Position numbers and translations under genes: made by a program. From positions 868,001 to 932,000 of the forward strand of contig NZ_CAHJXL010000001.1 in NCBI RefSeq assembly GCF_903645315.1: 64,000 nt of DNA, in the 5' to 3' direction. Under the pieces are notes generated by a model. The model was not told the origin of the DNA. It made no database searches and saw only the letters and a program-made list of their open reading frames with translations. Numbering within the stretch: position 1 is the first letter of the stretch; every line of letters begins with the position of its first letter. This document shows positions 32,087 to 59,604 of the stretch, one piece after another. The stretch comes from Victivallis sp. Marseille-Q1083 (GTDB lineage: Bacteria; Verrucomicrobiota; Lentisphaeria; Victivallales; Victivallaceae).

Positions 32087-33130
32087 TCATTGCGCCGGTT
32101 CACCGGGAATCTCGATGATTTCGACCGCTTCCGCCCGGCCGCTGCGGGCCGACCGGATTGCCGCTTCGGCGAAAGCGACGGTCCGGGCTCCTTCCGCCGC
32201 ATCGGTCGGGCAGGGCCGCCGGTGACTTAACGCGTCGACGAAGTCGGCCAATTCCGCCTGAATATTGTGGGAAGATACGGAAATCGGCACGGTGGCAAAC
32301 TGCAGTTTTTCCGGCGTTTCACAAAGCGCCTCCTCGCAGAGCAGCAGGTGATCGCTGGTGTTGTCGCAGATGATGGTGCCGCGGGTGCCGTAAATGACCG
32401 TGCGCATCGAATAGGGACGTTTGGCGCCGGATGAGACCAGAACGCGTCCGATGACGCCGTTCGGAAATCTGGCGACGGCGATACCGGTGTCCGGCAGCGG
32501 CCAGTCCGGCTGCAGTTTGTGGTTGAAGTAGGCGAACACTTCGACCGGATCGCCGGCCAGATAACGGGTCAGGTCCAGGGCATGGCAGCCGCCGCCGAGA
32601 AAGCTGTAGCGTTGGCTGGCCGGATCGCGCCGCCAGTTGCGGTAACCCGGCGCCAGCCGGTAATCATGGGCGTATTCACTCTCCAGACAGGCAATTTCGC
32701 CGATATGACCGGCCAGAATCAGTTGGTGCGCCAACTTGAAGCCGGGAGCGTAACGGCAGACCTGGCCGGTCATGAAGGTACGGCCGGCCTGCCGGACGGC
32801 GGCAACGATTTGCCGGCATTCGGCCAGGGTGGGAGCCAGCGGTTTCTCGCAGATGACGTGCTTGCCGGCGTCTAAGGCTTTGAGGACCTGTTCGGTATGA
32901 AAATGGTCCGGCGAGGCGACGACGACGAAATCGGCAGCGGAACGGTAAATGTCCTCCTCGGCGGCGGCGACCGGAATCCGGTGGGCGGCGAACAACGCTT
33001 TGTTGATCGTTTCGTTTTCTTCATAATATTTGTCGTAAACCATGACCAGTTCGACCTCCGGGAGCGCCAACGCCGCCCTGGCCCAGGCTTCGCCGATTTT
33101 CAAGCCGATGACGGCTGCTTTGAATTTCAT
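32087..33130 (-). CDS. Gfo/Idh/MocA-family oxidoreductase
   Basis: 347 residues: N-terminal NAD(P)-binding Rossmann domain, with G-L-K-I-G replacing the usual G-x-G-x-x-G, and the family's E-K-P-L-A motif (Lys is the catalytic-site residue), then a C-terminal alpha/beta domain with a G-G-G-C-H-A-L-D segment bearing the conserved His. The family acts on sugars or inositols. It is the last gene of the GntR-headed cassette, 17 nt after the metallophosphoesterase, and is followed by a terminator. It probably processes the sugar released by the upstream hydrolase (inference). No signal peptide. Confidence 0.88.
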   Translation of the reverse strand: MKFKAAVIGLKIGEAWARAALALPEVELVMVYDKYYEENETINKALFAAHRIPVAAAEEDIYRSAADFVVVASPDHFHTEQVLKALDAGKHVICEKPLAPTLAECRQIVAAVRQAGRTFMTGQVCRYAPGFKLAHQLILAGHIGEIACLESEYAHDYRLAPGYRNWRRDPASQRYSFLGGGCHALDLTRYLAGDPVEVFAYFNHKLQPDWPLPDTGIAVARFPNGVIGRVLVSSGAKRPYSMRTVIYGTRGTIICDNTSDHLLLCEEALCETPEKLQFATVPISVSSHNIQAELADFVDALSHRRPCPTDAAEGARTVAFAEAAIRSARSGRAEAVEIIEIPGEPAQ

Positions 33131-33147
33131 TTCCAGCCTCCTTCTTC

Positions 33148-34098
33148 TTAACGCAGTTTGCAGTCGGTGATTACTTCTCCGGCATCTTCCGTCCGGTAGA
33201 TTCTGGCAGTGATATCATCGCCTTCGATGATGAACTTCACAAACATCTCGTGTTCGATCAATGCTTCGCCAATGCCCAATTGATACAGTCGGCCAGCCGG
33301 CAGGACGCCGAAGCTGTGGGTGTGACCGCAGACATAAGCGACCACCCGGTCGTCCGCTTTCAAACATTCCCAGAGGGCATTGCTTTCGCCGGCGGCGCAA
33401 TTGATTTCACCGCATGACCGGGCTCCTTCCTGCCAGCGCTTGATGCCGTCGAACTGTTTGAGCGGTTCATGGGCGAAAACGAAGATATATTTCTGACCGG
33501 TTCGCCGCAGGTCCTCCCTGACCCATTCCAGCAGCGCCTGATCCACCTGCCCCTGCCAGCTCTGCTCCGGGGTCTGGGCGCTGTAGAGGTCCAGAATGAT
33601 GAAGTGGCATTGTTCATAATCAAATGAAAAGGTGGTGCAGCCCGCCCGGTCCGGCTGGTATTCGGCAAGTCCGGAGCGGGATTGGGGACCGCGATTAACG
33701 ATGCCGGGAACGGCGGAGTTGCGGGCGATAATCCGCCGGATGTTGCGTCCGGATCCATCGCAATTGCGTTGTTTTTCATTGGCGTTGCCTTCCGGTTCAT
33801 GATTGCCGACGACGACATACCAGGCATACGTTCTGCCCTGCCGGGCCAGCGGTTCAAGCAAATAATGGCTGACAGCCGCTTCCGCTTCCGGAAAATTGTC
33901 ATAATCGCCGCCGGTGATCAGAAAGTCGCCGGCTCCGATTCCCAGGATTCTCGCCGCCAGTTTCCGGAACCCTGCCTCCGGTACCTTATCCTGATAAAAG
34001 TGCAGGTCGGTCATGTAAAGGAACTCCAAACAGAAACCGGCCGGAGCAACCGCCAGCAGCAGGACTGCCAATAGAAATTTCAAGTGCTTTTTCATCAT
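33148..34098 (-). CDS. Secreted calcineurin-like metallophosphoesterase
   Basis: 316 residues with a signal peptide (about 1-23). Metal-binding motifs are present in order: D-L-H (T-D-L-H), G-D (T-G-G-D-Y), G-N-H-E, F-A-H-E and G-H-T-H. Probably cleaves a phosphomono- or diester outside the cytoplasm. The start (ATG ATG) overlaps the stop of the upstream hydrolase gene by 4 nt, and the oxidoreductase follows after 17 nt. It may remove a phosphate decoration from the glycan handled by the cassette (inference). Confidence 0.87.
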   Translation of the reverse strand: MMKKHLKFLLAVLLLAVAPAGFCLEFLYMTDLHFYQDKVPEAGFRKLAARILGIGAGDFLITGGDYDNFPEAEAAVSHYLLEPLARQGRTYAWYVVVGNHEPEGNANEKQRNCDGSGRNIRRIIARNSAVPGIVNRGPQSRSGLAEYQPDRAGCTTFSFDYEQCHFIILDLYSAQTPEQSWQGQVDQALLEWVREDLRRTGQKYIFVFAHEPLKQFDGIKRWQEGARSCGEINCAAGESNALWECLKADDRVVAYVCGHTHSFGVLPAGRLYQLGIGEALIEHEMFVKFIIEGDDITARIYRTEDAGEVITDCKLR

Positions 34099-36401
34099 TT
34101 TTTCCTCTCCTGTTTTTCTTTGACTCGAAAAGCGACGCCATTTCGGGGCAAGTCCCCGGCCGGCGGGATTGCCGCGGCAACACTCGGCATTTGCTTGACC
34201 GGCAGATCGGAATACCAGGCCAACTGCTCGATGCTGAATTTTCGTTCGCAGCTCTGGCGCTGCAGCCAGAATTCCAGTTGTTCATAGTGGCCGGGCGTTA
34301 TTTCGATGTATGCGGATTCCGTGCCGGCCGGCGGCAAAGCGATTTTATAAAGTTCAAAACTTTTGTCCCGGTCGTGCAGTTTGAGAAATATTTCGGTGAG
34401 CCGGGCGGTGTGATTGCGCAGGACGACATGGAGATAACGGCAGTTGGGACCGAGTGGAATGCGCAGATTCGGAAAGTCGCAATCGGCCGGAACGATCAGC
34501 TGCGGCGCTTCCCGGAGCGGACCAACCAACTCCAGATGATTCAGGCTCAGCAATCCGATGGTTTCCGGCGCATTCCAATCCAGGATATTTTCCGCAACCG
34601 GTTCAACCGAGGGAACGCTGAAACGCCGGAGCAATGCGGTGGAACCGGCCTGAATGCGTAACTCGGTCGGGCCGGGCGGCAAGGTCAGCTCAAACGTATA
34701 TTTCCCATCGCCGCCGGACAGCGGCAACGATTGCCCGTTGACCGTTGCGGCCGGCCGGATTGCCGGCCGGGTATGGAGCTCGCCGGAAACGACGGTGCCG
34801 GCCGGCCGGGTTCCTTCCGGTTCCGAAAGGGTCAGCAATGCCGGTTCACCGTTCGTCAAGGCGGTCAATTCCCGCAACAATTCCTGCCGCAATTCCGTAA
34901 TACCGGCGGCGGAACGGTCGAAGACGGTGAGCGAGGGAGCGATCCGGTTCACCGCCTGTTCGATGCGGCGGTCGGCGTCGTAATTGCAATGCAGCCGGTC
35001 CGCCGCGGCCTGCATGGCTTTCTTCAGCAGCATCAGCAGTTCAAAATCCTCATTGCCCTGCCGGATCATTTCCAGCCGCAGGCTGGGAACCGGCCGGGCC
35101 GCGGGAGAAGTTCCCGGATAGATCAGGAAGCCGTCGCCGTTGCCGCCCGGATAAGCGAGCGGATCGTTCCAGATATCGCGCGGCACGTAACGGTTCGATT
35201 GCCAGTCAAACTTCTGCCAGATGTTGACCGCCCAATAGAGGCTGCCTTCCACCCGGTACCGCGCCTGCAGCCAGCCAAGCAGCCGCGGCGCCGTCGCCGT
35301 GTCGTTGACAAGATAGGTCGGATAGGGCGGCGGCGGCCAGACACAGGTGTACCACCAGACTCTTTCGCCCAGTTGCTGGCGGGCCTGGAAATAGGCCGGA
35401 GAATAGTGGTTGAGATTGGGGCACCAGATGTCGAGCTGTTTTTCCAGCAGCGGAGCAACCGGGTGGTTGGTCGGAATGACGACCCGGGCATCCGGCGCCA
35501 GACGATGGATGGCTTCAATGGTCCGGACGCACATCTCGTAAGCGGACGGCTCGGGTTCGTCGACGGGATAGACGAATCCCCTGGACAACCATCCCCGTTC
35601 TCGAAGGTAATCACAGCAGGCGACGAATTGCTCCGGCCGCTGCAGGTCACAGGGTATCGAGAAGGTATTCACCCGGGGATCAGCCAGATAGGCTTCCGCT
35701 TCCGGCGATTCGAGCGGCACCGGCAAACCGCCGGCATTCAACCGGTAATCGAGTAAAAATTCATAGATATTTTCTTTCAACCGCTGATATTCCGGCGATT
35801 CTTCCGTCAACTCCGGGTAAGGGACGAGCAGCTGGTTATCCCAAATGGCAAAGGCGGATTGATAACTTGGCGTTTGCGGCAGAACGGGCGGATAGACGGT
35901 CAGCGTCAGCGGTATCTGCCATCGTTCCGCATCGATTTGCACCGTCACGCAGCCGGAATAAATTCCCGGCGGCGTTTCCGGCGCGATGAACCAGTCGAAG
36001 TAGAACGACTGGTTCTGGCCGGCGGCCACGGCAAACGGCGAGCCATCGTACGGCATCAGTGCGTCCGGCAATTCCACCGGCTCCGGTACCTGTTCGGTCA
36101 GTTTCAGATAACGGGCCTGCCGGACAGTGACGGCGGCGGCCGGAAATTCAGCGCCGTTCGCCTGCGTCAGCGCCTGAACCGTGATCGAAGCAGCCTCAAT
36201 ACCGGCGGAGCCGCCGGTGAAGACCAGTTGCGTCAGTTCATGTTCATTGCGCAACGCCGCCAATTGCCAGACTGCCGGCTCCCGTTTTTCAACCGGTGCC
36301 GAGCGGGCGATTTTTTCCATCGCCTCGACGACGGCGACTCCGCCGCCGAAGAGCGCCGGCCGGCAGCCGGCCAACAGTAATATTGCCAGAAATTTCATCA
36401 T
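34095..36401 (-). CDS. DUF4091 / GH123-like hydrolase, lipoprotein (cassette A)
   Basis: 768 residues. The N-terminus [13 protein letters not shown] gives a lipobox with C13, so it is probably anchored to the outer or inner membrane. After an N-terminal beta domain (about 35-175), a barrel carries the adjacent acidic pair D281-E282 in V-Y-P-V-D-E-P-E, the position of the catalytic pair in GH123 N-acetylgalactosaminidases. The DUF4091 region ends with [11 protein letters not shown] and [15 protein letters not shown]. About 240 extra C-terminal residues (about 530-768) look like beta-sandwich modules, possibly carbohydrate-binding. GH123 activity is not established for this branch. Overlaps by 4 nt with both neighbours. 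Confidence 0.82.
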
Positions 36402-37144
36402 TCCAGAACCCAGACTTTGCCGCCGTCGTCATAATAGGGGCGGAAGTATTTGATATAGTCCAGCTTGCCCTCGGTCCGGGTGATCGACCGGGCGCTGCCG
36501 TCGATCAGACAGGCGTTGAACGCCATACTGTGGATCAGGTTGACCGGATACCAGGAATCCGGCTCCATCGTCCCGTTCATCCGGTAACCGCGGTCGGTGT
36601 AATTTTTGTTGAAGGCGCTGCTGTCGATGATGATGCCCCAGGTATGACCGCCATACGATTGAGGAACCGAATCGGCAGCCAATACTGTAGTGCTGCCGCT
36701 GGCGGCCGCCTGTTGGGAAATGGCACTCCAGCTCTTCGGCGGATTGGAGTGGCCGGCTTTGTTGGAAGAACCGGCAATTCGATAGTTGAGTCCGACGGAA
36801 ACATCGGCATTCATGCCCCATTCCGAGGCGGTCCAGTCGCGGATGGATTCGCTCGGGCAATAAAAATTCTCCTTGGCCAGAGAGTAATCCCGATGCAGTT
36901 GCCAGGTCCAATCCCACCAGCCGCCGGTGGCGCCGTCCAGCGCGTAAGGAATACAGAAATCATCGTTATCCATGCCGTACATGACGATGCCGAGGTGGAT
37001 CTGTTTCAGATTCGACAAGCAGGAAATCGCTTGCGCTTTGGCTTTGGCTTTACTCAACGCCGGCAATAGCATGCTGGCTAAAATAGAAATAATTGCAATC
37101 ACGACCAGCAATTCAATCAATGTAAAATGTTTTCTGGCGCTCAT
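36398..37144 (-). CDS. Pseudopilin with H-X9-DG motif (cassette A)
   Basis: 248 residues. Prepilin signature [16 protein letters not shown] at the N-terminus, cleavable before F, with Glu at +5. The hydrophobic helix is followed by [11 protein letters not shown] and a globular domain. The C-terminal [12 protein letters not shown] fits the prepilin-type processing-associated H-X9-DG motif (His, nine residues, Asp-Gly). Such proteins are abundant in Lentisphaerota and Planctomycetota; their role is not established. ATG 37144 follows AGGAG. Its stop overlaps the start of the hydrolase by 4 nt. Processing would need a prepilin peptidase encoded elsewhere. Confidence 0.88.
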
Positions 37145-37274
37145 GATCAATCTCCTGATGGTTGAAAGTAACGGTGAAAGAGGAAAGAAAAATGTTGCCG
37201 TTCCCAAAAAAAACGGCGCTGGAGAAGGAAAATTTCAGGTGGCGGAGAGTTCCTTTCTGGTTGGGTTGACGGGA

Positions 37275-38312
37275 TCAAGGATATGGTTTTTCCGCGCGGA
37301 TCGGTACGCTTATTTGAACCGGGCTCAGCGCCGGATTGCGAATTTTCGCCAGCAGCAGCCCGACGATCGAAGCGGCCACTTCCTCAATGTCGAGCTCGTA
37401 AAAAAAGACGTTGTCAACCGGCAGCAATAGCGGGATCTGGCGGTTGCGGAGCGCAAAGATGACCGGATGCCAATCGGCGTGGCACCGGACCAGTTGGCAG
37501 CAGAAATCGGCGGTAGTGGTGTCATCATAGAAAATCAGCGCATCCGGCCGCACCGCCTGCCGCAGATAGTGATTGACCAGTTGTTCGCCGGCCAGCGGCC
37601 GGTATTCCATCCCGACCGCCCGCAGGAAAGCCGAGGCGAAAGGATCGCGTTGCCGGGCCTGCTCGAAATAGCGCATTTCCGGGAAAATGGCTTCGGGCCG
37701 GCTCAAGCCGAGCCGGCGTATATCCCGAAGCGCAGCCAGAGTGTAGTCGGTGACGGCGGTAGTGACGGTCAACGGAAATCCTCCACTGTGGCCGCAATAG
37801 CAAACCTGCACGCCGGTCGTTTCCAACTGCTGCCAATCGTTCAAAGCAAGCCGTTCGGTAGTGATGAAGCCGCTGAGCTGACCATGCTTCAATGCATAAT
37901 CCAAACCGGGAAACGAATGAATGGTGGCGTCTTCACTGCCGTAGTTGCAGAACAGCATCGCCCGGCAGCTCTGTTTCTGCAATTCGCTCTGCAGGTAATA
38001 GATCAGCATGCTGTTGTATGGACTGCCCTGGACCATGCTCAAACCGATGCCGATCAGCCGGGCGACCAGTTCGCCGGGTTCGTGGCGCCGGACGAAAATG
38101 CCGACTTTGTTGCGGACTTCCAGGATGCCTTCCTCCGCCAGAGCATGAATGGCGTTGGCAATGGTTTCGGTACCCAGCAGCAATTTGAGCCGCAGTTGAT
38201 CCTGGGTCGGCAGGCGGTCGCCGGCTTTCAATTGGGAATCCAGGATATAACAGAGCAACTTCTGCCTGGCCTGGTCGGCTTTGCGGCCGAGTCCGTTGGT
38301 CAACTTGAGCAT
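37275..38312 (-). CDS. GntR-HTH / LacI-sensor hybrid regulator (cassette A)
   Basis: 345 residues. An N-terminal GntR-type winged HTH (about 10-75; I-L-D-S-Q-L-K-A-G-D-R-L-P-T-Q-D-Q-L and L-A-E-E-G-I-L-E-V-R-N-K-V-G-I) is joined to a periplasmic-binding-like sensor (about 85-330) as in AraR-type regulators. It heads the cassette, 130 nt before the pseudopilin, and probably represses it until a sugar signal appears. A candidate operator lies at 38340-38357 in its promoter region. Confidence 0.85.
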   Translation of the reverse strand: MLKLTNGLGRKADQARQKLLCYILDSQLKAGDRLPTQDQLRLKLLLGTETIANAIHALAEEGILEVRNKVGIFVRRHEPGELVARLIGIGLSMVQGSPYNSMLIYYLQSELQKQSCRAMLFCNYGSEDATIHSFPGLDYALKHGQLSGFITTERLALNDWQQLETTGVQVCYCGHSGGFPLTVTTAVTDYTLAALRDIRRLGLSRPEAIFPEMRYFEQARQRDPFASAFLRAVGMEYRPLAGEQLVNHYLRQAVRPDALIFYDDTTTADFCCQLVRCHADWHPVIFALRNRQIPLLLPVDNVFFYELDIEEVAASIVGLLLAKIRNPALSPVQISVPIRAEKPYP

Positions 38313-38339
38313 TGTCTGGCATCTCCGATATTTTTTATG

Positions 38340-38357
38340 TAAACGGAAAACTGTTTA
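38340..38357. promoter_or_regulatory. Candidate operator of cassette A
   Basis: Inverted repeat TAAAC (38340-38344) / GTTTA (38353-38357) with 8-nt spacer, about 30 nt upstream of the GntR-type regulator start, in an AT-rich promoter-like segment. Short arms, so only a suggestion. Confidence 0.35.
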
Positions 38358-38553
38358 TATTGTAAGTATAGCAAAATTTTACATAAAAGTCAACCCTCCC
38401 GATGAAGAATTCATGTGCATTCTGCGAAATACATTAAATTATTTATTTTTAACTATTTACAATGCATTGAAATTTGAAAAATCCTCCAACTGAAATTATA
38501 TTGTAATCTTCTAGCAATCAAAATCATAACTCCAGAAGGAGGAATAAAAACCA

Positions 38554-39834: not shown

Positions 39835-40134
39835 CTTCGCGATAATCTCAAATTTTTCAATCAACCCCGGCGAATTCACATCCGCCTTAATTCTTCACGC
39901 CTTTTTTCAGCGATTTTTTACCCAATTCTGCACCAACTCGTACTGTTTGCTTGTTTTCAAAGCTTTTGCCGGTGGCTCAAACTGCTTCCTGTTCACTTTT
40001 CCTCTATTTCGCAGAACTCATAGAATTCATGGAATTCAAATCAAAGAAAAAAACTTTTTTTAATACGCAGCAGTAGCATAACGGCAGCGGCAAGCTCCGC
40101 GATGGGACAAATCCGCCGCTCAAAGCGGCATGAT
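39835..40134. other. Region after the transposase
   Basis: About 300 nt with no supported gene. It is rather AT-rich and must hold the right end of the DDE element, but no terminal repeat was recognised. A short stretch near 40070-40110 has a D-arm-like look but does not fold into a tRNA. Confidence 0.5.
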
Positions 40135-40165: not shown

Positions 40166-40192
40166 AAATTCGGCGAAGAAACCACTCCGGCT

Positions 40193-43232: not shown

Positions 43233-44786
43233 TCAATGAAGCGTCGCAAACAATTTGCGGCGCAGCGTATCGACCGCCGCCGGGTCATCCGGATATTGAT
43301 ACGGCGCCGGATAAACCTCGCGGACCGCCGCCAGCACCGTTTCGCGGCCGTCCTGTTCGGCACAGGCCTCGAACAACGCCCAGTCTTCCAGGCTGTCCCG
43401 CAACCGGGCCAGCCGGACCGACGCCAGCGGGGGCTGAAAGCCGCTGGCCGGAGGTGCGGCGATGAAATCTTCCGCCGGATAGAGCAGCACGCCGTCGCCG
43501 GCGGCAAAGGCCGGATTGAATGCCGGCAGGCCGCCGGGAACGGCCGCCCGGCCGGAGAAGGCATTCACCGCCCAGTAAAGAAAGCCGCTGGCATTCTCCT
43601 TCCAGGCGCGCCAGAGGACGAAACGGTGCTGTAAACCGGACATGCCCAGGAAATAATTCGGCGCCGGCTCGCCGGGACCGCAGCAGACGTAAGGCCAGAC
43701 CTCCGGCCGGCGCGGTTGTCGGCGCAGCCGGTCGATGAAGCCTTCATCCTCGCCGATCGCCCAGTAACTCATGGAGTGAATGTCGCAATCCTCGCCGAAG
43801 GCGTCGTAGACCTCCCCGAGCGACTCCCGTTCCCTGTCCGGGCCGCAGAAGTAGGAAACCAGCACCGGAATGGCCGGGTCGATGGCCCGCAACCGGGCGG
43901 CGCGTTCATGGACGGCCGGATAATATTCATCGGTCGGCTCGTCGAATACGTAGCAGAAACTGCGGTCATGCCAGTTGCGGGCGGCCAGCAAATCGGCAAA
44001 CCGGCGCAGTTCTTCGGCGTCCGGGTCATCCGGATTGCAGAACGGCACCGCGAAAGCGACCTGGCGCGGATCGGCCAGCAACGCAGCGGTGCGCGGGTCA
44101 TCGGCCGGCCACGGCGACGGATAACAATAGTTCAACGGCGTTTGGCCTTCTTCATAGACCGGCCGCCAGAAATAGGGAGAAAGGCCGTATTCCAGACATT
44201 TTTCATGCCATTGCAGCAGAATATTGCAACCGGCCTCGCTGTCGAGCTCCCGGTGGTAGATGTCGGCAACCTGCCGGTCCATAATTCCGGCCGCCACCGC
44301 GATCGGCGGCGCCGCCGGCATCGTAAAACCGGTCACCTCGATTTGCAGCGGAACATGCAATGCCGTTTCCGGCGCCGTCACGGTCAAAGAGACCGGATAG
44401 CCGCCGGGCTCCGCATGGACGGCCGTTTTGACCGTCAGCCAGAAATAGGCCGGTTGACCGGCGGCCACTTCCACGCTGCCGCCCTCCGGCAGCGGCACCA
44501 GTACATCCGGCACCCCGCCGGCTTCGGCGATTCGAAACAATGAGAAAGTCAGCCCCGGCACTGCCGGCAGCGAAAAAGCCAACACGACCGGTTCCGAAGC
44601 GGCAACCGCCAGTTGCACGCTTTCATATTCATTGCGCGCCATCGTCAGCGCCAGCGTGCCGCCGGGAACCGCCTCGGCCGGGTCGCGCACGTCGGCCAGC
44701 GAATGGAACACCTTGATTTCAACGCCGGCCAGCGCCGAAGCGGTCAGCATGCCGGAGAGAAGGGTAGTCAGAACCGTCTTTTTCAT
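43233..44786 (-). CDS. Secreted DUF4091 / GH123-like hydrolase (cassette B, second)
   Basis: 517 residues from ATG 44786, with a Sec signal (about 1-20, T-A-S-A-L-A-G). An N-terminal beta domain is followed by a barrel with the acidic pair D282-E283 (Y-V-F-D-E-P-T-D). The DUF4091 end carries G-D-G-V-L-L-Y-P and S-V-R-L-A-R-L-R-D-S-L-E-D-W. It is 56 nt after a paralogous gene and is the last gene of the LacI-headed cassette. In-frame starts further upstream would place extra residues before the signal and are unlikely. Substrate unknown; GalNAc-type glycans are possible from the GH123 link. Confidence 0.82.
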   Translation of the reverse strand: MKKTVLTTLLSGMLTASALAGVEIKVFHSLADVRDPAEAVPGGTLALTMARNEYESVQLAVAASEPVVLAFSLPAVPGLTFSLFRIAEAGGVPDVLVPLPEGGSVEVAAGQPAYFWLTVKTAVHAEPGGYPVSLTVTAPETALHVPLQIEVTGFTMPAAPPIAVAAGIMDRQVADIYHRELDSEAGCNILLQWHEKCLEYGLSPYFWRPVYEEGQTPLNYCYPSPWPADDPRTAALLADPRQVAFAVPFCNPDDPDAEELRRFADLLAARNWHDRSFCYVFDEPTDEYYPAVHERAARLRAIDPAIPVLVSYFCGPDRERESLGEVYDAFGEDCDIHSMSYWAIGEDEGFIDRLRRQPRRPEVWPYVCCGPGEPAPNYFLGMSGLQHRFVLWRAWKENASGFLYWAVNAFSGRAAVPGGLPAFNPAFAAGDGVLLYPAEDFIAAPPASGFQPPLASVRLARLRDSLEDWALFEACAEQDGRETVLAAVREVYPAPYQYPDDPAAVDTLRRKLFATLH

Positions 44787-44842
44787 GTCAGCAGAACTTT
44801 CTCTTTTGCTATGGAAGATTGATGGCAATCGCCGATGCACGG

Positions 44843-46447
44843 CTATTTCAACAATTCGGCGGCCCGGCGTTTGAATTGACGCAACGCCTCGGAACCGGGA
44901 AAGAACGAATTGGTTTCCGCCGGCGACCGGTAAAATTCATCCAGCAGCGCCCTGGCGGTTTCCCGGCCGTGCCTGCGCTCAACCTGGATCAGCAATTCGA
45001 CATCTTCCGCTCCGTCCCGCCAGCGTTCCAGCCGGGTCGAGGCCAGAAGGCCGGGCACGCCGAAATACGGTCCCGGATAAACCAGGAACCCGTCGCCGTC
45101 CGGCAAGCCGGAATTGGAATGAATGCCGCCGTCCCGCAGCGTCTGGTAGTTGGCACTCCAATAGAGGAACCCGGTCGCCTCCTCCTGCCAGGCCCGCCAC
45201 CAGACCGCCCGGTTCTGCACGCCGGTCATGCCGAACAGCAAATTGGGTTCGTCGCCGCCCGGCCCCATGCAGACATAGCTCCAATGCTGTTCCTTTTCCG
45301 GCCGCAGCAGCGCATGGAATTCCCGGGCGAAATCGCTCTGTCCCAGCCAGGCGTATTCGCCCCAGCAGAAAATCTGTCTTTCGCCGGTAAACGCTTCATG
45401 AACCTTGCGGAATCCTTCCGGCGTATGTTGTTCGCCGGCACCGATGAAAAAGGTGTTCAGCGTGTAACAATCCGGCGCTTCCCGGTCGATGACCGCCATC
45501 ACCGCCTTGATCCGGCGATACATCTCCTCGGTGGTGGATTCATCGGCGATATAAAAAATACCGGTTTTGCCGGCCGCCCGGATCGCCGCCAGATTGCGCC
45601 GCAGCTCCTCCGGATCGTAATTGGCCGGGTCCAGCAACCGCGCCGAATCCCGGTAGAACGGCACCATCACATGGGTATAACGCTCGTCGGCGAGCAGTTC
45701 CCGGCTCCGTTCGTCGTACCACGGCCACGGCGAACCGGTCATCATCATCGGCCCGCCGCCTTCCGCATAGGGGCAGAACCGGTAATCCAGCAGAAAACGA
45801 ATGTACTCCGCCACCTTGTCCGCCACTTCCGGCGAACCCGGCTCCAGCCACCAGAGCGGCGCCAGCGGAATCGAAGTGACGGTCACCACCGACGGATAGG
45901 TCGGCACCCGCGGCACCGCGGCATCAAGGACCTCCAGTTCGATCGGAATTTCTTCGGCGAAATCGTCGCCAGTCAAAGTCAGCGCGGTGCGATATAATCC
46001 CGGAACGGCGGATTCCGGCACTTTGACGGTAAAGTAATTGTCGGTCGGACGGTCATCGCGCAGCAGCACCCGGTCGACCGGAATCAACACGTCGCCGCCG
46101 ACCGTCCCGTTCAATCCCACCGTCCGGAAGCTGCCGGCTTCCCGGGGCAGCATCACGCCGTCCGGACCGGTGAATTCTCCCCAGTCGACCTTGACGAACG
46201 GCATCGTCAGCAACGTGGTTCCCCGCGCCAGCCGTTCCGGCGTGATCGTCAGACGAATCTGCAGGTGCTCGGCCTCGCCGCGCGCCGCCACCAACACCGG
46301 CGGCGCCGCTTCGGCATGGGCCGCGATCTCCCGGTCCGACCAGACGCTGTCGGCAAAAACCGTGGTCCACTCCGGTTCCCCGCCGGGGAGCGCCCAGGCG
46401 CCGCCCAATAGCAGCATGCTCAAATTGAAAATTTTCATTCCATTCAT
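44843..46447 (-). CDS. Secreted DUF4091 / GH123-like hydrolase (cassette B, first)
   Basis: 534 residues with a signal peptide (I-F-N-L-S-M-L-L-L-G-G-A-W-A). Acidic pair D302-E303 in F-Y-I-A-D-E-S-T, and DUF4091 features G-D-G-F-L-V-Y-P-G and R-L-E-R-W-R-D-G-A-E-D-V. ATG 46438 (third codon on) is an alternative start. It lies 28 nt after the pseudopilin and 56 nt before its paralogue. The two hydrolases differ enough to suggest different linkages or substrates. Confidence 0.82.
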   Translation of the reverse strand: MNGMKIFNLSMLLLGGAWALPGGEPEWTTVFADSVWSDREIAAHAEAAPPVLVAARGEAEHLQIRLTITPERLARGTTLLTMPFVKVDWGEFTGPDGVMLPREAGSFRTVGLNGTVGGDVLIPVDRVLLRDDRPTDNYFTVKVPESAVPGLYRTALTLTGDDFAEEIPIELEVLDAAVPRVPTYPSVVTVTSIPLAPLWWLEPGSPEVADKVAEYIRFLLDYRFCPYAEGGGPMMMTGSPWPWYDERSRELLADERYTHVMVPFYRDSARLLDPANYDPEELRRNLAAIRAAGKTGIFYIADESTTEEMYRRIKAVMAVIDREAPDCYTLNTFFIGAGEQHTPEGFRKVHEAFTGERQIFCWGEYAWLGQSDFAREFHALLRPEKEQHWSYVCMGPGGDEPNLLFGMTGVQNRAVWWRAWQEEATGFLYWSANYQTLRDGGIHSNSGLPDGDGFLVYPGPYFGVPGLLASTRLERWRDGAEDVELLIQVERRHGRETARALLDEFYRSPAETNSFFPGSEALRQFKRRAAELLK

Positions 46448-46475: not shown

Positions 46476-47168
46476 TCAATAATATAGCACGCTCATCGGC
46501 CACTTGTAATCCTCATAGAATTTACCGTCCGGATCGTGGAACCACCCCTCCTCGTGGGCCCGGGCCGAACCGTCGAGATGGCCGCAATTCGCCCGCCGGC
46601 TGTGCCGCAGGCCGATAAAGCCGATCCACCAGTCCACCGTGTAATACTGCTTCCCTTCGTAAACGTCGCCGGAACCCGGCGCGCCGGTGGTGTCCAGATA
46701 GATCACGCAATCGGACGGATTGGTTTCGCTGCCGGTTTTGATGGTGCCGTTCCAGGCATCGAAACCATCGCGATTGGTCCGCAGCGGCATGCCGTAGCAC
46801 TGCCGGCGGTATTCCCATTTCCAGTCGGACGGCATCTGGTCATTGGTGGTTTTCCAGGTGAATCCGGCGCCGGGCGGATTGTTCGCCGGACACATCAGGG
46901 TTCTCGGCGGATTGTCGACATAACCGAGGTCGACCAGGTAACTGCTCCATTCGCCGCCCCATTGATCCATCACCACCGGCGGACAGTTGTCGTCATAATC
47001 GTTGGCATACATCTGGGTGGACAGCATCAACTGTTTGAGGTTGCTGATGCAATTGACCGCGATCGCCTTGGCTTTGGCCTTCGACAACGCCGGCAGCAAC
47101 ATGCTGGCAAGAATGGCAATAATAGCAATAACTACCAGCAATTCAATCAATGTAAATTTCTTTTTCAT
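46476..47168 (-). CDS. Pseudopilin with H-X9-DG motif (cassette B)
   Basis: 230 residues. [21 protein letters not shown]-type prepilin N-terminus, S-K-A-K-A-K-A after the helix, and a C-terminal [12 protein letters not shown] (H-X9-DG). AAAGGTGG precedes ATG 47168. It lies 30 nt after the LacI regulator and 28 nt before the first hydrolase. Very similar to the cassette A and C proteins in the first 45 residues, but different in the globular part. Confidence 0.9.
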
Positions 47169-47198: not shown

Positions 47199-48302
47199 TC
47201 AATAACTTTCCGCGATGATTTCAATCCGGTTGTCCTCGTCCCGCACCTTCGTTCCGGCCGGAACGCCGGCGGATTCGCGCCAGACCAGCGACGGCACCAC
47301 CCGGCGGCAGCGCTGCTCCGGCGGCAACTCCTTTTTTTCGATCAAAGCCAGCAGAAGTTCAATCAGATATTTACTCTGGATTGCCAAATTTTCATCGATG
47401 GTCGCCAGCGCCGGAATCAGCAACCCGGAGAAGGGTTCATTGTCCTGGCCGATGACGGCGATGTCCTCCGGCACCCGAATCCGCCGCCGGTGAAGCTCCT
47501 GCAGCAGAAAGGCGGCGAAGAGATCGTTCTGCATACAGATCGCGTCGATCCGGTTCGGCAGCAGCAGCTCTTCTATCGCCCGCCGGACGATGCGGCGCGT
47601 CTCGTCCAGATCGTTGGAATAATCAATCCGGAAGACGAAAGCCTCCCGCCCTTCCCGGCAACCGGTGGCCGCCAGCGCTTCCCGGAAGCCGTCGACCCGG
47701 GTTTCGATCGAGTAATAGGGCAGTTTGTCGACCACCAGTGCGACCCGGCGCCGGCCGCATTTGATCAGATATTCCGCCGCCCGCCGGGTTCCGGCCCCCC
47801 AGTCGACATCGACATAGACCGCGTCCCCGACGATCGGTTTGCCGAGAAACACCACATTTTTCATTTCCGCAAACTGCCCCCGCAACTCCTCATTCTGGAG
47901 CGGAAAATCATGCTTCAGATAGACGACGCCAGTGACGCCGTATTCGCAAAAGGTCCGGTAGGACTGCAGCAGTTCATCCGAGCGGTCGGAATTCTCGTTG
48001 ATCATCAGCCGGTAACCGTATTTTTTCGCCTCCCGTTCCATCATCGACAGCCGGCGGAAATAGGCCGGCCCGGAATGACTGTCGATGCTGACGCCGATGA
48101 TCTGGCTGCTCTTGCCGACCAGCATTTTCGCCGCCCGGTTGGGCTGATACCCCAGCAGCTCGGCCGCCTGCCGCACCTTGTCCCGCGCCTCTTCGGAGCC
48201 GGTCCGCACCGCCGAATCGCTTAAAATATAACCGACCAGACTCTTCGACATGCCGCAATATTCAGCGATATCTTTGATGGTCACCCGCTTATCCGATGGC
48301 AT
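47199..48302 (-). CDS. LacI-family regulator of cassette B
   Basis: 367 residues: LacI HTH (V-T-I-K-D-I-A-E-Y-C-G-M-S-K-S-L-V-G-Y-I-L-S), then a sugar-binding-type sensor (about 65-330) with D-A-I-C-M-Q-N-D and D-I-A-V-I-G-Q-D-N. A perfect palindrome of LacI operator type lies 34 nt upstream of the start, so autoregulation with the downstream pseudopilin and hydrolases is likely. Confidence 0.92.
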   Translation of the reverse strand: MPSDKRVTIKDIAEYCGMSKSLVGYILSDSAVRTGSEEARDKVRQAAELLGYQPNRAAKMLVGKSSQIIGVSIDSHSGPAYFRRLSMMEREAKKYGYRLMINENSDRSDELLQSYRTFCEYGVTGVVYLKHDFPLQNEELRGQFAEMKNVVFLGKPIVGDAVYVDVDWGAGTRRAAEYLIKCGRRRVALVVDKLPYYSIETRVDGFREALAATGCREGREAFVFRIDYSNDLDETRRIVRRAIEELLLPNRIDAICMQNDLFAAFLLQELHRRRIRVPEDIAVIGQDNEPFSGLLIPALATIDENLAIQSKYLIELLLALIEKKELPPEQRCRRVVPSLVWRESAGVPAGTKVRDEDNRIEIIAESY

Positions 48303-48335
48303 ACCGACTCCTGTTCCGTTTGATCCATTTTTCCC

Positions 48336-54198: not shown

Positions 54199-54541
54199 GC
54201 GTCTCCTCTTCCCAACCGTCGTCACGCTGTCACTTTCCCGTCCCGGAAGAGTCCCGCCGCGAATCGGCAATCGAAAAAGAAATGGCAACCGTCCATCCAT
54301 CAACTTTATTGTTTATTGTCTTCGCCAAGCCCCCCACTGAAATCATCTCAGTCGCCGGGTTTTCAATAGTTTGGCAAAAAGCATTTTCGACATCGATAAT
54401 TTATCCCGCCGAACCACCAATTGCAACCATCTGGTTTCCGGTTTGCTGAAAATATCTTTTCCCATCAATGCGCCGAATTTCTCCGGAGAACGCCGGGAGA
54501 GAAGATTTTAAATAATTTTTAACATTTTGTTATAAATACTA
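54199..54541. other. Intergenic region between divergent kinase and ROK genes
   Basis: About 340 nt with no supported gene. It becomes AT-rich toward the ROK promoter at 54542-54570. The kinase leader lies at the left end. No other motif recognised. Confidence 0.55.
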
Positions 54542-54570
54542 TTGACTTTTGAAATTTTTTTTGATATAAT
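54542..54570 (+). promoter_or_regulatory. Sigma-70-type promoter immediately before the ROK start codon
   Basis: TTGACT (54542-54547) and TATAAT (54565-54570) with 17-bp spacer. The -10 box ends 7 nt before the ATG at 54578, so transcription would start at or next to the start codon. Confidence 0.8.
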
Positions 54571-54577
54571 AGTAACT

Positions 54578-55780
54578 ATGATGAAAACGACGACCATTTT
54601 CAACAATTTCAAACCGGTCCTGCCGGCGACGGATCTGAGTCCGGCCCGCCAGAGAGAAATCCTGCGGCTGTTCTGGCGGCAGCCCGGCCTGTCCCGGAAG
54701 GAATTGGCCAAACAGTTGCACTGTTCGCTGGTCAGCGCCGGCCGCTATACCGACAGTCTGCTCGCCGCCGGCTGCCTGGAGGAACACAACCAGACGGTCA
54801 CCGGCCCCGGCTGTCCGCCCGGTGCGCTTTATCTGCATTCCAGGCTGTTTTTGCTGGCCGGACTGCATTTTCACGACGGCGACAACATCACTGCGGTGCT
54901 GTTGAACACCAATGGCGCCACGCTGTTCCGCCGCACGCTGACCGTGCCGGCGTCGACCCCGGCCGAAGCCAAAGTCGACAGCGCCATCCGCCTGTTGGAA
55001 GAGCTGCTCGCCGCCGCCCGGGTTCCGCCGGAACGGCTGCCGGGCATCGGCGTCGCGCTCACCGGCATTTCCAATCCGGCCACCGGCGAAGTGGTCAACT
55101 CCTTCCAGTTCCGCGACCTGCGAGCGCCGCTGCCGCTGCGGGAACGGCTCAGCCGTCATTTTCACAAGCCCTGTGTTTTATGCAATATTTCCCATCTGCT
55201 CGCCTGGCTGGAAAAACGCCGCGGCGGCGCCGCCGGACTCGACGACTTCATCTATGTCCACGAAGGACTGGGCATCGGCCTTTACCTCAACGGCCGTCTT
55301 TATCAGGGGCATCAGGAGGGCGCCGGAGAATTCGGTTTAATCCAGATCGCCCGGGAAAGCGCACCACACCCTTATGACGGACGGCACGGCACGCTGGAAA
55401 TTCTCGGCGGCATCAACCGGCTGCAGAAAATCTACCGGGCCATCCGCGGTCCCGGCTGGCAATTTACCGATTTTCTCCGGGAAGTCCGCCAGGGCGACCG
55501 GCAGGCAATCGAGCTGTTGCGCGACTGTTACGGCTATATTGCCCGGGGGGTGGTCAATCTGGCTTACCTGCTCAACCCGGAAGCTATTTTCCTGCCGCCG
55601 TGGACCGCTGAATTCCCGGAATACACGCTGCAGGTCGTGCAGGAGGCCATGGAACATTACGGCAATGCCGGCTGGGGATTGCGCTGTGCGGTCCAGCCGG
55701 CGCATTGCGGCGACGACCAGTTGCCGTTGGGCGCCGCAATGCTGCCGATGGAATACTTTTTCGAAAATGAATTGAATTGA
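54578..55780 (+). CDS. ROK-family transcriptional regulator (cassette C)
   Basis: 400 residues. N-terminal winged HTH (about 20-75; [13 protein letters not shown] and S-R-K-E-L-A-K-Q-L) then an ROK domain with A-G-E-F-G. The kinase features of ROK sugar kinases are absent: no D-x-G-x-T phosphate loop, and the zinc motif C-x-C-G-x-x-G-C is replaced by H-P-Y-D-G-R-H-G. It is therefore a NagC/XylR-type repressor with a changed metal site. It has no Shine-Dalgarno; the start follows the promoter directly (ATG ATG). It heads the third cassette, 58 nt before the pseudopilin. Confidence 0.9.
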
Positions 55781-55838
55781 GCCGGAGTTACCAAGCAATG
55801 GAACACGCATCCGTCAAGCAACAGGAAAGGATCACCTC

Positions 55839-56576
55839 ATGCAACGAAAATTTTTCACACTGATCGAACTGCTGGTCGTCATCGCGATAATCGCCATTCT
55901 CGCCAGCATGCTGCTGCCGGCGCTCGCCAAAGCGAAAGCGGCAGCGCAGAACATCAAATGCGTCAGCAATCTCAAACAGATCGGCCTCGGCCAGGCGCTT
56001 TATCAGAACGACTATGACGACTGGGTGCTGTCGCCGACAACGCTGAAGGAAAATGACGTCTGGGTATTCTGGTGGGAAACGATGCTCGACTACGGGTTCG
56101 GTCCGGCCTCGATGTGCTGTCCGGCCGCGCCGGAAAACATCGGCGACCGCGACGGGCTGCTGGTCGACCAGCACGGCAGCTACGGGGTGAATATGACCAG
56201 CTTCGGCAATCTGGCCCAATTCGCCCCGGCGTTGACCGACGGCTGGACGAAAGTGCACAAGGCCGCCGAGTTCGACAAATTCGGCAAGACCTCCGACTTG
56301 ATTTATGCCGGCGATTCGGTGCCGCAGGACCAGGCGCTCGCCGATGCCGTCCGTCTGCAATGGCATTCGCCGATTTACATCAAATGCGACGCGCCGGTCT
56401 ATCCGCAGATCGACGGCATGCGCAGTTATCCGATCACCGCCCGCCACAACAACCGCGCCAATGCGGTACTCCTCGACGGCCATGTCGAAGGAATCCATTA
56501 CCTCGACCTTGCGCCGTGGTACCTGCACTGGGCGCCGCTGAACAATGCCTCCGGCCTCTACATGCCGACCTGGTAA
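55839..56576 (+). CDS. Pseudopilin with H-X9-DG motif (cassette C)
   Basis: 245 residues. Prepilin N-terminus [17 protein letters not shown], helix, then L-A-K-A-K-A-A-A. The C-terminal [12 protein letters not shown] fits H-X9-DG. GAAAGGA precedes ATG 55839. Located 58 nt after the ROK gene and 19 nt before a large hydrolase, repeating the order seen in cassettes A and B. Confidence 0.9.
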
Positions 56577-56595
56577 ACCAACCGGAACAACTCCC

Positions 56596-59500
56596 ATGAC
56601 CGAATTCATCCTGTCTTTGAGCATCCTGCTGGCCGCCGCCGGAAGCGCGGCGGCGGTCGAACCGGAAACCGAAAATGCACGCCACGGGCAGACCCGGGAA
56701 CCGCCTCTGGCCGTCCGCTGGGAATTCCAGGCGCCGGACAATGCCGGATTGCAGGCGGAGCAACAGCCGGACGGCACCTTGACCATCGACGGCGACATCG
56801 GCGACGCCCCCGCCTTCTGGCAGAGCGAGCCGCTGCCGCTGTCAGCCGGCCGCACCTACGGCCTGCGCTTCGAAGCGCGCGGCAACACCGGCGCCGGCTG
56901 TCTGATCGGCGGCACCGCGCTGGTTAACCGCGACCGGCGGCAATTGGGCGGGGAATGGCAGGAGTACGTTAACCGCTTCATCGTCCCGACGCCGGCGCCG
57001 GAAGCGGCGCGGCGGTTGCAGTTCGGCGGCTGGCGCACCGGCGACCGGCTGGCGTTCCGGAATCCGGTACTGTTCGAAAGCATCCCGGTTTTCGTATCCG
57101 CCGGCCAGCCCCTAGCGGAAGAGGAATTTTACGAAAACGGCGTTTATCATTTCGAGCCAAGCTGGAATCAGGAGAGTTCCGCCTGCAGATTGTCCGGCAT
57201 CGCCGGCCGGGTTGCGTTCAATACAACCGTCTGGCGCTTCGAACCGAATGGCTCGCTCGAATATCGCTTCGACAACGGGCCGTTCACCGCGGCAGCCGTC
57301 AGCGTCGAATCCTCCTATGCCGCCGACGGCGGCGTCCTGCTCCTCGAAGCCGCCCGGAATGACGAAGCATTCCGACCGGTCGGCGAATTGAGCGGGACCG
57401 GCGCATTCTCCGCTCCGCTGCCCGCCTCGCTGCTGCCGGCCAAACAGCTCCGGCTGCGGCTGCGGGGCAAACAGGGCGTCATTCAACTCAGCCGGCTGGC
57501 GTTCACCGCCAGGCCGGCCGAACCGCCGGCCGACGACGCCGGGCGACAATGCGGCGAACTGGAATTCTCGGCCGTCGATCCGGCCATCCGGCTGCCGTCC
57601 CCCCTCTTCCTCAACCCCGAAACCCGGCAATTGCCGTTGCAGTTGCCGGACGGCCGAACCGGACCGTTCCGCTTTGAAATCGTTGTGTTGCAGGAAGAGG
57701 AATTGCAGCGGACGGAACTGCGGCTTGAAGCGGACGGCCCCCGGCTGGAACTGCCGTTGCCGGCACCGCTCAGTGAACTGGACGGCGTACTGATCCGTTC
57801 TGCGGAACTGGAACTGCAATTGGTTTACCGCAGCAAAACCTCTCCCGGCCTGCGGCGCGGCAACGCCACCGGCGGCGCGCTGCTGCTGGCCCGCCCCGAC
57901 GAACTGGCGGTCTGGACGGCACCGTCAACCCAGAAAGTCGCCGTCGATTCGCCGCTGCCGTCACCGCGCACCGAATGCCTCCAACTGACCGCGGCAGCCA
58001 ATGAAACCGAAGCGGTTCAATTGCTGATCACTCCGATCCGGCCGCTGGCCCGAGTCAAAATCACCGCCGATCCATTGCGGAATACGGCTGGAAGGCAACT
58101 GCCGGCGGAAGCGCTTTCGATCGACCGGGTCGAATACGTCAAAATCACGATGCCGACCGATTCCTCCGGCATGATCGGCGAATGGCCCGATCCGCTGCCG
58201 CCGCAACCGGCCGGCGGCAGCGACCTGCCCGCCGGACGGAACGCCGCCTTCTGGGTCAGGGCCAAAATTCCGGCCGGGACGCCGGCCGGCTTCTACCACA
58301 GCCGGTTGCACATCACCGGCGCGTCCCTGGAACCGATCGTCATTCCGCTGCAACTGGAAGTCTATGACTTCGCGCTGCCGGACCGGGCCAGTTGCCGGAC
58401 CGCCTTCGGACTGGGCATCGACCGGCTGCTGCGCTATTACCGGCCGGTAACCGACGACGAACGGCGCGGCATCGCCCGCCAATATCTGCAACTGCTGGCC
58501 GACAACCGGATTTCCAGTTACGGCGGCAGTTTCAACCGGCTCGATTACCGGCTCGAGCTGTCAGACGACCCGCCGCAGTGTCCCCGCGTTCAGTTCGACT
58601 GGACGGAATTCGATGCCAATATGACCATGTTGTTCGATGAATTTCATGCCAACAGCGCCGTCGTGCCGGTCGAGGGCCTGGGCAGCGGCACCTTTCACGC
58701 CCGCCACCCCGGTTCGATCGGCGGCATCACCGCCGACGATCCGCGTTACGAGCCGGTCATCGCTTCCTATCTGGGCCAGCTCGACGCGCATCTGGTCGAA
58801 AAAGGCTGGGACCGATACTGCTACACCTATACGTTCGATGAACCGGAGGAAAAAGATTATCCGTTCGTCATGGAGCAGATGGCGCTGCTGAAAAAATACG
58901 CCCCCCACCTGCGGCGGTTGCTGACCGAGCAGCCGGAAGCGCCATTGTACGGCGGCCCGAACATCTGGTGCCTGCCGACTTATTATCTCGACGCCGAACG
59001 CGTCGCTGCCCGGCGTAATGCCGGCGACGAGCTATGGTGGTACATTTGCACCCAACCGCGGGCGCCGTTCGCCGGCGAATTCATCGACCACCCCGGCACC
59101 GCGCTGCGGGTCTGGCTGTGGCAGACCTGGCAGTACCGCCTCACCGGCATCCTGATCTGGGAAACCGTCTACTGGACCAGCGAAACCGCCTATCCGGACT
59201 CCCGGCAGAACCCCTACCGCGATCCGGTCGCCTGGATGACCGGTTACGGCACGACGCCGGGCACCCGCACCAGTTGGGGCAACGGCGACGGCCGACTCAT
59301 CTATCCGCCGGAACCGGCCAGAAACGGCGAACTTTGCGAGCCGGGCGACCGGCCGGTGTCGAGCTTCCGGCTGGAAGCGCTGCGCGACGGGCTGGAGGAT
59401 TTCGAATATCTGACGATGCTGCAGAAGTTGCTGGCGGAAAAGCAGGCGGTCCTGACACCGGACGAATACCGCGACTACCGGCAATTGCTGGCGGTTCCCG

Positions 59501-59604
59501 AATCGATCAGCCGGTCGCTGACGGAATACACCTTCCGCGCCGCGCCGATCGCCAGCCGGCGGGACGCCATCGCCCGCGCCATCGTCGAACTGCGCCGGCG
59601 TTAA
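56596..59604 (+). CDS. Large secreted DUF4091 / GH123-like hydrolase (cassette C)
   Basis: 1002 residues from ATG 56596, with a signal peptide (L-S-L-S-I-L-L-A-A-A-G-S-A-A-A). About 450 N-terminal residues form several predicted beta-rich modules, the first resembling a carbohydrate-binding jelly roll (L-R-F-E-A-R-G-N). A catalytic barrel has D748-E749 in Y-T-F-D-E-P-E-E, and the DUF4091 end has G-N-G-D-G-R-L-I-Y-P-P and S-F-R-L-E-A-L-R-D-G-L-E-D-F. It is about twice as long as the cassette B enzymes because of the N-terminal modules. A terminator follows. Confidence 0.85.
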   Translation: MTEFILSLSILLAAAGSAAAVEPETENARHGQTREPPLAVRWEFQAPDNAGLQAEQQPDGTLTIDGDIGDAPAFWQSEPLPLSAGRTYGLRFEARGNTGAGCLIGGTALVNRDRRQLGGEWQEYVNRFIVPTPAPEAARRLQFGGWRTGDRLAFRNPVLFESIPVFVSAGQPLAEEEFYENGVYHFEPSWNQESSACRLSGIAGRVAFNTTVWRFEPNGSLEYRFDNGPFTAAAVSVESSYAADGGVLLLEAARNDEAFRPVGELSGTGAFSAPLPASLLPAKQLRLRLRGKQGVIQLSRLAFTARPAEPPADDAGRQCGELEFSAVDPAIRLPSPLFLNPETRQLPLQLPDGRTGPFRFEIVVLQEEELQRTELRLEADGPRLELPLPAPLSELDGVLIRSAELELQLVYRSKTSPGLRRGNATGGALLLARPDELAVWTAPSTQKVAVDSPLPSPRTECLQLTAAANETEAVQLLITPIRPLARVKITADPLRNTAGRQLPAEALSIDRVEYVKITMPTDSSGMIGEWPDPLPPQPAGGSDLPAGRNAAFWVRAKIPAGTPAGFYHSRLHITGASLEPIVIPLQLEVYDFALPDRASCRTAFGLGIDRLLRYYRPVTDDERRGIARQYLQLLADNRISSYGGSFNRLDYRLELSDDPPQCPRVQFDWTEFDANMTMLFDEFHANSAVVPVEGLGSGTFHARHPGSIGGITADDPRYEPVIASYLGQLDAHLVEKGWDRYCYTYTFDEPEEKDYPFVMEQMALLKKYAPHLRRLLTEQPEAPLYGGPNIWCLPTYYLDAERVAARRNAGDELWWYICTQPRAPFAGEFIDHPGTALRVWLWQTWQYRLTGILIWETVYWTSETAYPDSRQNPYRDPVAWMTGYGTTPGTRTSWGNGDGRLIYPPEPARNGELCEPGDRPVSSFRLEALRDGLEDFEYLTMLQKLLAEKQAVLTPDEYRDYRQLLAVPESISRSLTEYTFRAAPIASRRDAIARAIVELRRR

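Follow-up and report, generated by a model that had tools for sequence, protein, structure and literature searches.

The stretch of DNA analyzed here, referred to below as the window, comprises 64,000 nucleotides (positions 868,001 to 932,000) of contig NZ_CAHJXL010000001.1 from Victivallis sp. Marseille-Q1083, and it carries three gene cassettes in which a sugar-type regulator is followed by a pilin with an H-X9-DG motif and then by one or two enzymes related to glycoside hydrolase family 123 (GH123, whose catalytic domain was formerly called DUF4091). Domain scans confirmed the positions and the gene order that a sequence-only reading had assigned to these cassettes, and also its claim that the regulators belong to three different families. 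Cassette A lies on the minus strand and opens with a GntR regulator (37275..38312; GntR helix-turn-helix domain PF00392, 40.5 bits), whose C-terminal region finds near full-length matches in other pilin-linked GntR regulators of the genome (phmmer; for example L034_2350, E 1.2e-42, residues 5-326). Its pilin of 248 residues (36398..37144; motif from the His at 36532 descending to 36497) is followed by a putative secreted GH123-like enzyme of 768 residues (34095..36401; Asp-Glu at residue 281, GDGFLIYP at 422) with a lipobox-like LAGC near its N-terminus as judged by eye, a metallophosphoesterase (PF00149; 33148..34098) with a signal-like N-terminus, also by eye, and a Gfo/Idh/MocA oxidoreductase (32087..33130). 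Cassette B, likewise on the minus strand, has a LacI-family regulator with a Peripla_BP_3 sensor (47199..48302), a pilin of 230 residues (46476..47168; motif from the His at 46604 descending to 46569) and two GH123-like enzymes, the first of 534 residues (44843..46447) and the second at 43233..44786, where the open reading frame begins at 44840 and a signal peptide, by eye, from about 44786. Cassette C, on the plus strand, consists of a ROK-family regulator (54578..55780), a pilin of 245 residues (55839..56576; motif 56445-56480) and a GH123-like enzyme of 1002 residues (56596..59604). The step from pilin to hydrolase is as tight as had been described, with an overlap of 4 nt in A and gaps of 28 nt in B and 19 nt in C. 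A motif scan of the window found prepilin N-termini in these three pilins only. Between cassettes B and C (48448-54303, minus strand) lies a reading frame of 1951 residues for a histidine kinase with several PAS domains, one GAF domain and a receiver.

All three window pilins carry a true H-X9-DG motif. Of the three, that of cassette C alone scores above the threshold of TIGR04294, the H-X9-DG model (19.8 bits against 19), and PF07596 (DUF1559, cut-off 23.3) gave no match for pilins A and B and 20.9 bits, below the cut-off, for pilin C; genome-wide, 27 of the 30 hits to this model at E<=1e-3 exceed the cut-off. Scored with the GspG model TIGR01710 (cut-off 88.85) the three reach 27.5-33.9 bits, far below the threshold. 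The four hydrolases all carry Y-x-x-Asp-Glu and GDGxLxYP, as the sequence-only reading had noticed, and they score 47.9-78.6 bits against PF13320 (GH123_cat, formerly DUF4091; cut-off 23.1) with partial coverage, chiefly of the C-terminal part of the profile. A genome-wide regular-expression count of the two motifs (Asp-Glu in 19/37, GDGxLxYP in 27/37) was discarded, the expression having missed even canonical GH123. Among solved structures a beta-N-acetylgalactosaminidase, 8k2j, comes nearest by sequence to the enzyme of cassette C (E 6e-22, over residues 722-944), and DUF4091 proteins with a conserved Asp-Glu pair are described, in the accessible part of one account, as several groups of beta-N-acetylgalactosaminidases (PMC11087588). 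Judging from the family and from 8k2j, the substrates of the window enzymes are most likely glycans containing beta-N-acetylgalactosamine.

Pilins, enzymes and regulators across genomes

The source genome (4.82 Mb) contains at least 155 pilin genes of the H-X9-DG type. A profile built from the three window N-termini matched 150 of the 150 candidates scored, from a total of 198 (weakest E 2.5e-26), and five more were added through DUF1559. The strict motif is present in 114 of the 155, compared to 5.35 expected from residue shuffling. Of 38 GH123_cat matches in the genome, 28 are preceded within 5 kb by a pilin on their own strand, whereas 2000 random placements averaged 2.9 and reached 10 at most (mean 2.8 and maximum 9 in a repeat with 1000 trials), and the control arrangements were rare, with a same-strand pilin downstream in 4/38 and opposite-strand pilins in 2 and 0. 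The pilins are therefore not placed at random with respect to hydrolase genes, which bears out the co-occurrence that the sequence-only reading had proposed. A same-strand pilin starts 0.6-2.0 kb downstream of 42 of the 67 GntR genes (random mean 1.7, maximum 6, 1000 trials), and the reverse order, with the pilin upstream of GntR, is found in 4/67. DUF4838 genes have a pilin 0.5-4 kb upstream in 15/23 cases (random mean 1.3, maximum 6) and downstream instead in 3/23, and one of four sulfatases has a linked pilin, which is too few to judge.

To describe the neighbors, genes were called in stretches around the 155 pilins and 152 pilins were assigned; the scans leave out 35 opposite-strand upstream genes, neighbors that are themselves pilins and genes of less than 100 residues. 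Pilin and next gene share a strand in 138 of 152 cases, compared to 87 of 127 neighboring pairs in 20 random stretches. Among 129 distinct downstream genes Pfam recognized GH123 in 20, DUF4838 in 14, GH42 in 8, DUF6259 in 5, GH20 domain 2 in 5 and Peripla_BP_3, in regulators, in 7; among 107 same-strand upstream genes it recognized Peripla_BP_3 in 54, GntR in 38, LacI in 24, AraC in 3 and ROK in 2; and 110 random genes gave Peripla_BP_3 and DUF4838 twice each, with GntR, LacI and GH123 at most twice each, as they are not among the 25 of 213 families listed. A Sec-like signal was found under a strict rule in 71/129 downstream, 27/110 random and 12/107 upstream genes, counts that are low because the gene caller misplaces starts (50 of the 152 pilins were called without their N-terminal motif, one of these calls being a LacI gene), and under a lenient rule, which has a high false-positive rate, in 111/129, 52/110 and 34/107, respectively. 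By eye, the 18 signal-less downstream genes include five that are regulator-like and one that is ABC transporter-like by its N-terminus. The typical cassette is a sugar-type regulator, mostly GntR or LacI and in many cases with a periplasmic-binding-protein-like sensor, then a pilin, then one or more genes mostly with Sec-like signals, and the commonest recognized enzyme families are GH123-like, DUF4838 and GH42. Six proteins of about 1550 residues and of one family each follow a pilin (L003, L004 with two, L005, L084 and L097). IS110-type transposases make up 4 of the 107 upstream genes, a possible route for cassette movement.

The canonical form of GH123 served as a control. The single canonical full-length GH123 of the genome (E 6e-112) has no signal peptide at its start and no pilin in the 3.7 kb upstream. 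In 12 canonical loci sampled from other genomes of the order (nine further canonical matches lie outside the sample) a pilin N-terminus was found in none, with about 1 kb upstream covered, so that gaps of more than about 200 nt could escape; the nine readable starts have no signal peptide by eye, those of L238-L240 being unreadable in frame. Outside the order a canonical GH123 can carry a signal peptide (L230-L234, L247). Among the divergent, mostly secreted-type GH123 genes, a pilin ends no more than 600 nt away in 23 of the 36 examined in the source genome, in 14 of 22 assessable (23 examined) in other genomes of the order and in 0 of 7 assessable (8 examined) outside it; these counts leave out one row from the source genome and one from a relative, which had no locus or frame, and 14 further rows (12 from G015, one each from G040 and G053).

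The profile found pilins in 52 of 59 genomes sampled across the Genome Taxonomy Database (GTDB) phylum, with per-genome counts running up to at least 112. Of the 17 genomes that belong to the order's families f1 and f2, 13 have at least 34, compared to one among the other 42. The named relatives sharing these pilins are mostly Victivallales and other Lentisphaerota. Among 80 named loci from other genomes, 10 offered no pilin frame that could be used, and the pilin and the gene that follows it share a strand in 61/65. The upstream genes (n=56) include GntR (10) and Peripla_BP_3 (9), and the downstream genes (n=61) include CBM_4_9 (7), DUF4838 (6) and GH42 (5), with GH123 at most once, as it is not among the 25 of 46 families listed. 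Compared with the source genome, regulators make up a smaller share in these loci. The number of pilins correlates with that of GH123 genes (rho 0.77, 20 genomes), a correlation to which we give no weight because pilin number also tracks genome size (0.87).

Stalk, head and leader of the cassette pilins

A core of 24 residues in the stalk is identical to the letter in 139 of 153 pilins under a loose pattern and in 139 of 148 under a tighter one. These 139 cores are encoded by 139 distinct DNA sequences, with a codon homozygosity of 0.52 compared to 0.46 expected from the codon use of the genome. Because so many different DNA sequences encode one identical core, we read the uniformity of the stalk as the result of strong selection on the protein and not of recent copying. 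Recent gene conversion was considered as a cause and is disfavored by the diverse synonymous sites. The same data bear on the proposal that the pairing has no specific function and that a large paralogous pilin family simply spread along with regulator-hydrolase operons by duplication and recombination. Some cassettes have clearly been co-duplicated, the enzyme family being shared in 18 of the 59 pilin pairs of very high similarity (E <1e-20); however, the stalk protein hardly varies although its synonymous sites do, and the fixed order with many enzyme and regulator families, its recurrence in other genera and the absence of pilins from canonical GH123 suggest selection on the arrangement, so that we regard this proposal as highly unlikely. 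Within relatives the picture is mixed, the stalk being uniform in several and not in G009, G046 and ADurb.Bin242 (1-9 pilins each). A separate observation concerns codons inside the identical stalk: Thr2 is ACA in 106/139, although ACA makes up 5% of Thr codons in the genes sampled, Ile15 is ATT in 101/139 and Glu5 is GAA in 132/139, whereas stalk Thr in relatives is ACA in 22/73. This preference could be due to selection on the mRNA near the start.

Beyond the stalk the pilins diverge, and mean pairwise identity among the 155 falls from 77% in the first 48 aligned columns to 22% thereafter. A few head residues are near-invariant, namely two Cys (each in 153; Pro comes after the second in 144), one His (in 152) and one Asp (in 153, with Gly next to it in 146), and this fixed core suggests one fold with a variable surface. 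Pairing each head with its best hit more than 20 kb away gave the same enzyme family in 21 of 133 pairs, compared to 6.4 by chance and a maximum of 19 in 5000 shuffles, and a different family in the other 112. Such coupling, somewhat above chance, would be compatible with a surface display function in which the two proteins would sit together in a complex, at the cell surface or on the filament, with the pilin as a scaffold, neither binder nor exporter, and the tight operon linkage and the signal peptides agree with it. However, the coupling is weak, and no dockerin-like or other shared docking module appears among the downstream families listed (25 of 45 and 25 of 46 in the two parts of the scan), which makes a scaffold quite unlikely in our view. 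The weak tie of head to enzyme family fits better with recognition of glycans than with recognition of the enzyme.

The sequence-only reading had also described the N-terminus of the pilins as cleavable. That it is of the prepilin type was upheld, all three window pilins scoring above the cut-off of TIGR02532, but cleavability does not follow from the leaders themselves, the residue at -1 being His, Lys and Phe. Read without requiring E5, the predicted mature N-terminus has F1 in 149/150 and E5 in 150/150 of the pilins genome-wide. E5 is a hallmark of type IV prepilins and is needed for assembly in known pilins. Type IV prepilin leaders end in Gly or Ala according to the accessible text of one source (PMC8179133), whereas the residue before the cleavage point is Gly in one and Ala in two of the 150 and the usual Gly/Ala is missing in 147 (a 79-row alignment that includes the three window pilins has Gly once and Ala once). 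The pilins might then remain uncleaved, as inner-membrane-anchored periplasmic sensors or chaperones that never polymerize, and the available part of a study of Tuwongella, where proteins with N_methyl and SBP_bac_10 were found mostly in the detergent-soluble fractions S2 and S3 (PMC8567305), points the same way. Against this, E5 is kept throughout, and among the genome's own type II pseudopilins Gly/Ala at -1 is found in 2 of the 12 readable by eye; since these genuine pseudopilins share the missing Gly/Ala, the odds of the uncleaved state are lowered and we consider it quite unlikely. One prepilin peptidase gene was found in the genome, and the enzyme probably accepts residues other than Gly/Ala at -1. 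As the type II pseudopilins likewise mostly lack Gly/Ala and one peptidase is present, cleavage of the cassette pilins is still likely.

Pilus and secretion machinery

Two kinds of machinery in the genome could make use of the cassette pilins. A type IV motor locus holds two PilB/GspE-like ATPases, a PilT (above cut-off) and a PilC and has no pilin gene immediately adjoining; its tandem ATPases are listed for all 20 of the genomes compared within the order. Two adjacent large secretins of 893 and 1030 residues (L302, G000 C1:1284-1290k) match the Amuc_1098 family far below its cut-off. There are also four type II operons (L296-L299, at G000 C2:760-776k, C2:500-516k, C2:876-894k and C1:3832-3850k), each with a GspD-GspE pair, a GspG (138-157 bits, against the cut-off of 88.85) and further pilin-like genes whose leaders, as noted above, mostly lack Gly/Ala at -1; GspF, GspJ and GspK are Pfam-confirmed in one of them (L299). 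The four genuine GspG proteins have 137-146 residues and stalks unlike those of the cassette pilins. Elsewhere, four pilin-like genes lie within 3.6 kb (L033 926-4471; G000 C1:1049.4-1053.0k), with FTLVE-type stalks that also differ from those of the cassette pilins.

Because the stalk core is identical, the heads are divergent, the motor locus has no directly adjoining pilin and tandem ATPases occur in all 20 genomes, we tentatively favor, with less than even confidence, a reading in which the cassette pilins are exchangeable subunits of one shared type IV filament that serves glycan capture. The near-invariant stalk together with the 112 of 133 head pairs that differ in enzyme family favors such subunits over enzyme-specific adaptors. 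Near-identical stalks would pack alike in the filament, and each head would differ so as to suit the glycan handled by its cassette. A regulator sensing its sugar, as the regulator families lead us to expect, would have the matching pilin and secreted enzyme made together, and the head displayed on the filament would capture or position the glycan for the enzyme, with retraction perhaps provided by the PilB-PilC-PilT motor and a pilus secretin; the pilin would thereby fill the role that a SusD-like binder has elsewhere, with no SusC/SusD involved. In its boldest form, which we regard as possible though doubtful, one constitutive type IV machine would draw on some 150-300 interchangeable heads, each induced by sugar from a cassette that also encodes a regulator and a secreted enzyme of its own, and the cell would re-tip the same pilus for each glycan.

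Several observations weigh against a shared filament. The pilin sample is biased to the cassette stalk, since the profile was built from that stalk and 150 of 198 candidates were scored; the leaders, as described, mostly lack the usual Gly/Ala; and a profile search of solved structures matched the pilin stalk only and found no carbohydrate-binding fold for the heads. Moreover, a DUF1559-type pilin with a different stalk (FTLLELLIVIAVIGILSGLLLPAV) lies 4.6 kb upstream of the motor genes, behind unrelated genes (L300 1701-2567; G000 C1:1321.7-1322.6k). Finally, an additional GspE-type ATPase is present in 13 of 14 pilin-rich genomes (>=18 pilins) and in 2 of 6 pilin-poor ones (p 0.014, with genome size as a confounder).

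This last association belongs to the main rival, a type II export accessory, in which each cassette pilin would be built into the pseudopilus of one of the four type II systems and assist in exporting its co-expressed enzyme or delivering it to the surface. The enzymes follow directly after the pilin and mostly have Sec-like signals, and the genome has four GspD-GspE-GspG operons as candidate partners. The canonical GH123 of the order, signal-less where readable and without a pilin, agrees with the export accessory and with the shared filament alike. However, each type II operon already has its own GspG and pilin-like genes, similar heads mostly stand beside enzymes of a different family, and characterized type II systems move many substrates with one pseudopilin set, that of Legionella having at least 25 exported proteins in the accessible part of one account (PMC6617341). 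Across the order the distribution of the type II ATPase points both ways, since in the pilin-rich exception G058, a draft genome in about 90 contigs with a completeness of 98%, 74 pilin matches go with no GspE-type match other than the tandem pair. We therefore consider export by the pilin a serious rival and nevertheless an unlikely one. The sequence-only reading had proposed a modular glycan-use system with a dedicated pseudopilin for the export of each enzyme: its modular, regulator-linked, non-random character and its recurrence in the order stand, whereas a pilin dedicated to the export of each enzyme is less well supported, given the GspG that each type II operon has of its own, the shared stalk and the 112 of 133 head pairs.

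Comparison with known systems

Planctomycete members of the DUF1559 family share the H-X9-DG motif. Their expansion is known, with 74 DUF1559 genes in Rhodopirellula baltica (PMC2754498), 68 DUF1559-type paralogues in Planctopirus limnophila, where they form the biggest paralogue group and have no known function (PMC10632474), and 91 proteins with both N_methyl and SBP_bac_10 in Tuwongella (PMC8567305), as given in the accessible parts of these reports. DUF1559-type proteins have been labeled solute-binding in two of the accounts, as far as their available text goes (PMC2754498, PMC4807772), and the accessible planctomycete literature also notes DUF1559 pilins flanked by secreted genes. These proteins (DUF1559/SBP_bac_10 with N_methyl, TIGR04294) resemble the cassette pilins in their prepilin-type N-terminus and in their very many paralogues. 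However, two of the three window pilins have no PF07596 match and the third falls below the cut-off, and here the pilins stand with sugar-type regulators and secreted glycosidases in a fixed order, cassettes of a kind that the accessible parts of the planctomycete accounts do not mention. That in this order relatives of the DUF1559-type pilins often stand next to a regulator of sugar type on one side and a secreted glycosidase on the other makes the role of a so far unexplained family open to direct test. GspG, in turn, shares the N-terminal helix, as the weak TIGR01710 matches indicate, but the cassette pilins lie far below its cut-off and have other stalks.

The enzymes share PF13320 and the Asp-Glu pair with the GH123/DUF4091 beta-N-acetylgalactosaminidases as presented in the accessible part of PMC11087588, and differ from them in their partial profile match, in being predicted to be secreted and in their link to pilins; the cassette C enzyme also has a long extra N-terminal region. 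For the proposed filament, a parallel is offered by modular or ligand-binding minor pilins such as PilB of Streptococcus sanguinis, which in the available text of its description (PMC8179133) combines a common stalk with a ligand-binding head on a shared filament, whereas here about 155 heads are found in one genome, many in an operon with its own regulator, and no grafted module was recognized. The individual families and the planctomycete DUF1559 expansion are thus already known, and no account of a regulated cassette of pilin and glycosidase was found in the open-access literature searched, a scope outside which most subscription papers fall.

SusCD-type loci of the Bacteroidota combine a regulator, a binder and enzymes and occur in many copies per genome. 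The cassettes are likewise modular, with a regulator, a candidate binder and enzymes, and differ in that a pilin would occupy the position of the binder and that no SusC/SusD-type Pfam match was found among the 15 window proteins scanned. Akkermansia belongs to the same GTDB phylum, and its type IV-like pili are reportedly needed for mucin uptake; the two secretins described above match the Amuc_1098 family model from that system, far below its cut-off. Taken with these parallels, the cassettes hint at a pilus-based use of complex sugars unlike the Bacteroides system. If the pilins do share one filament, this would be a mode of complex-sugar capture that is new for gut bacteria, and if that pilus is indeed re-tipped for each glycan, Victivallales would use complex glycans through a third architecture, next to SusCD and the loci of Gram-positive bacteria.

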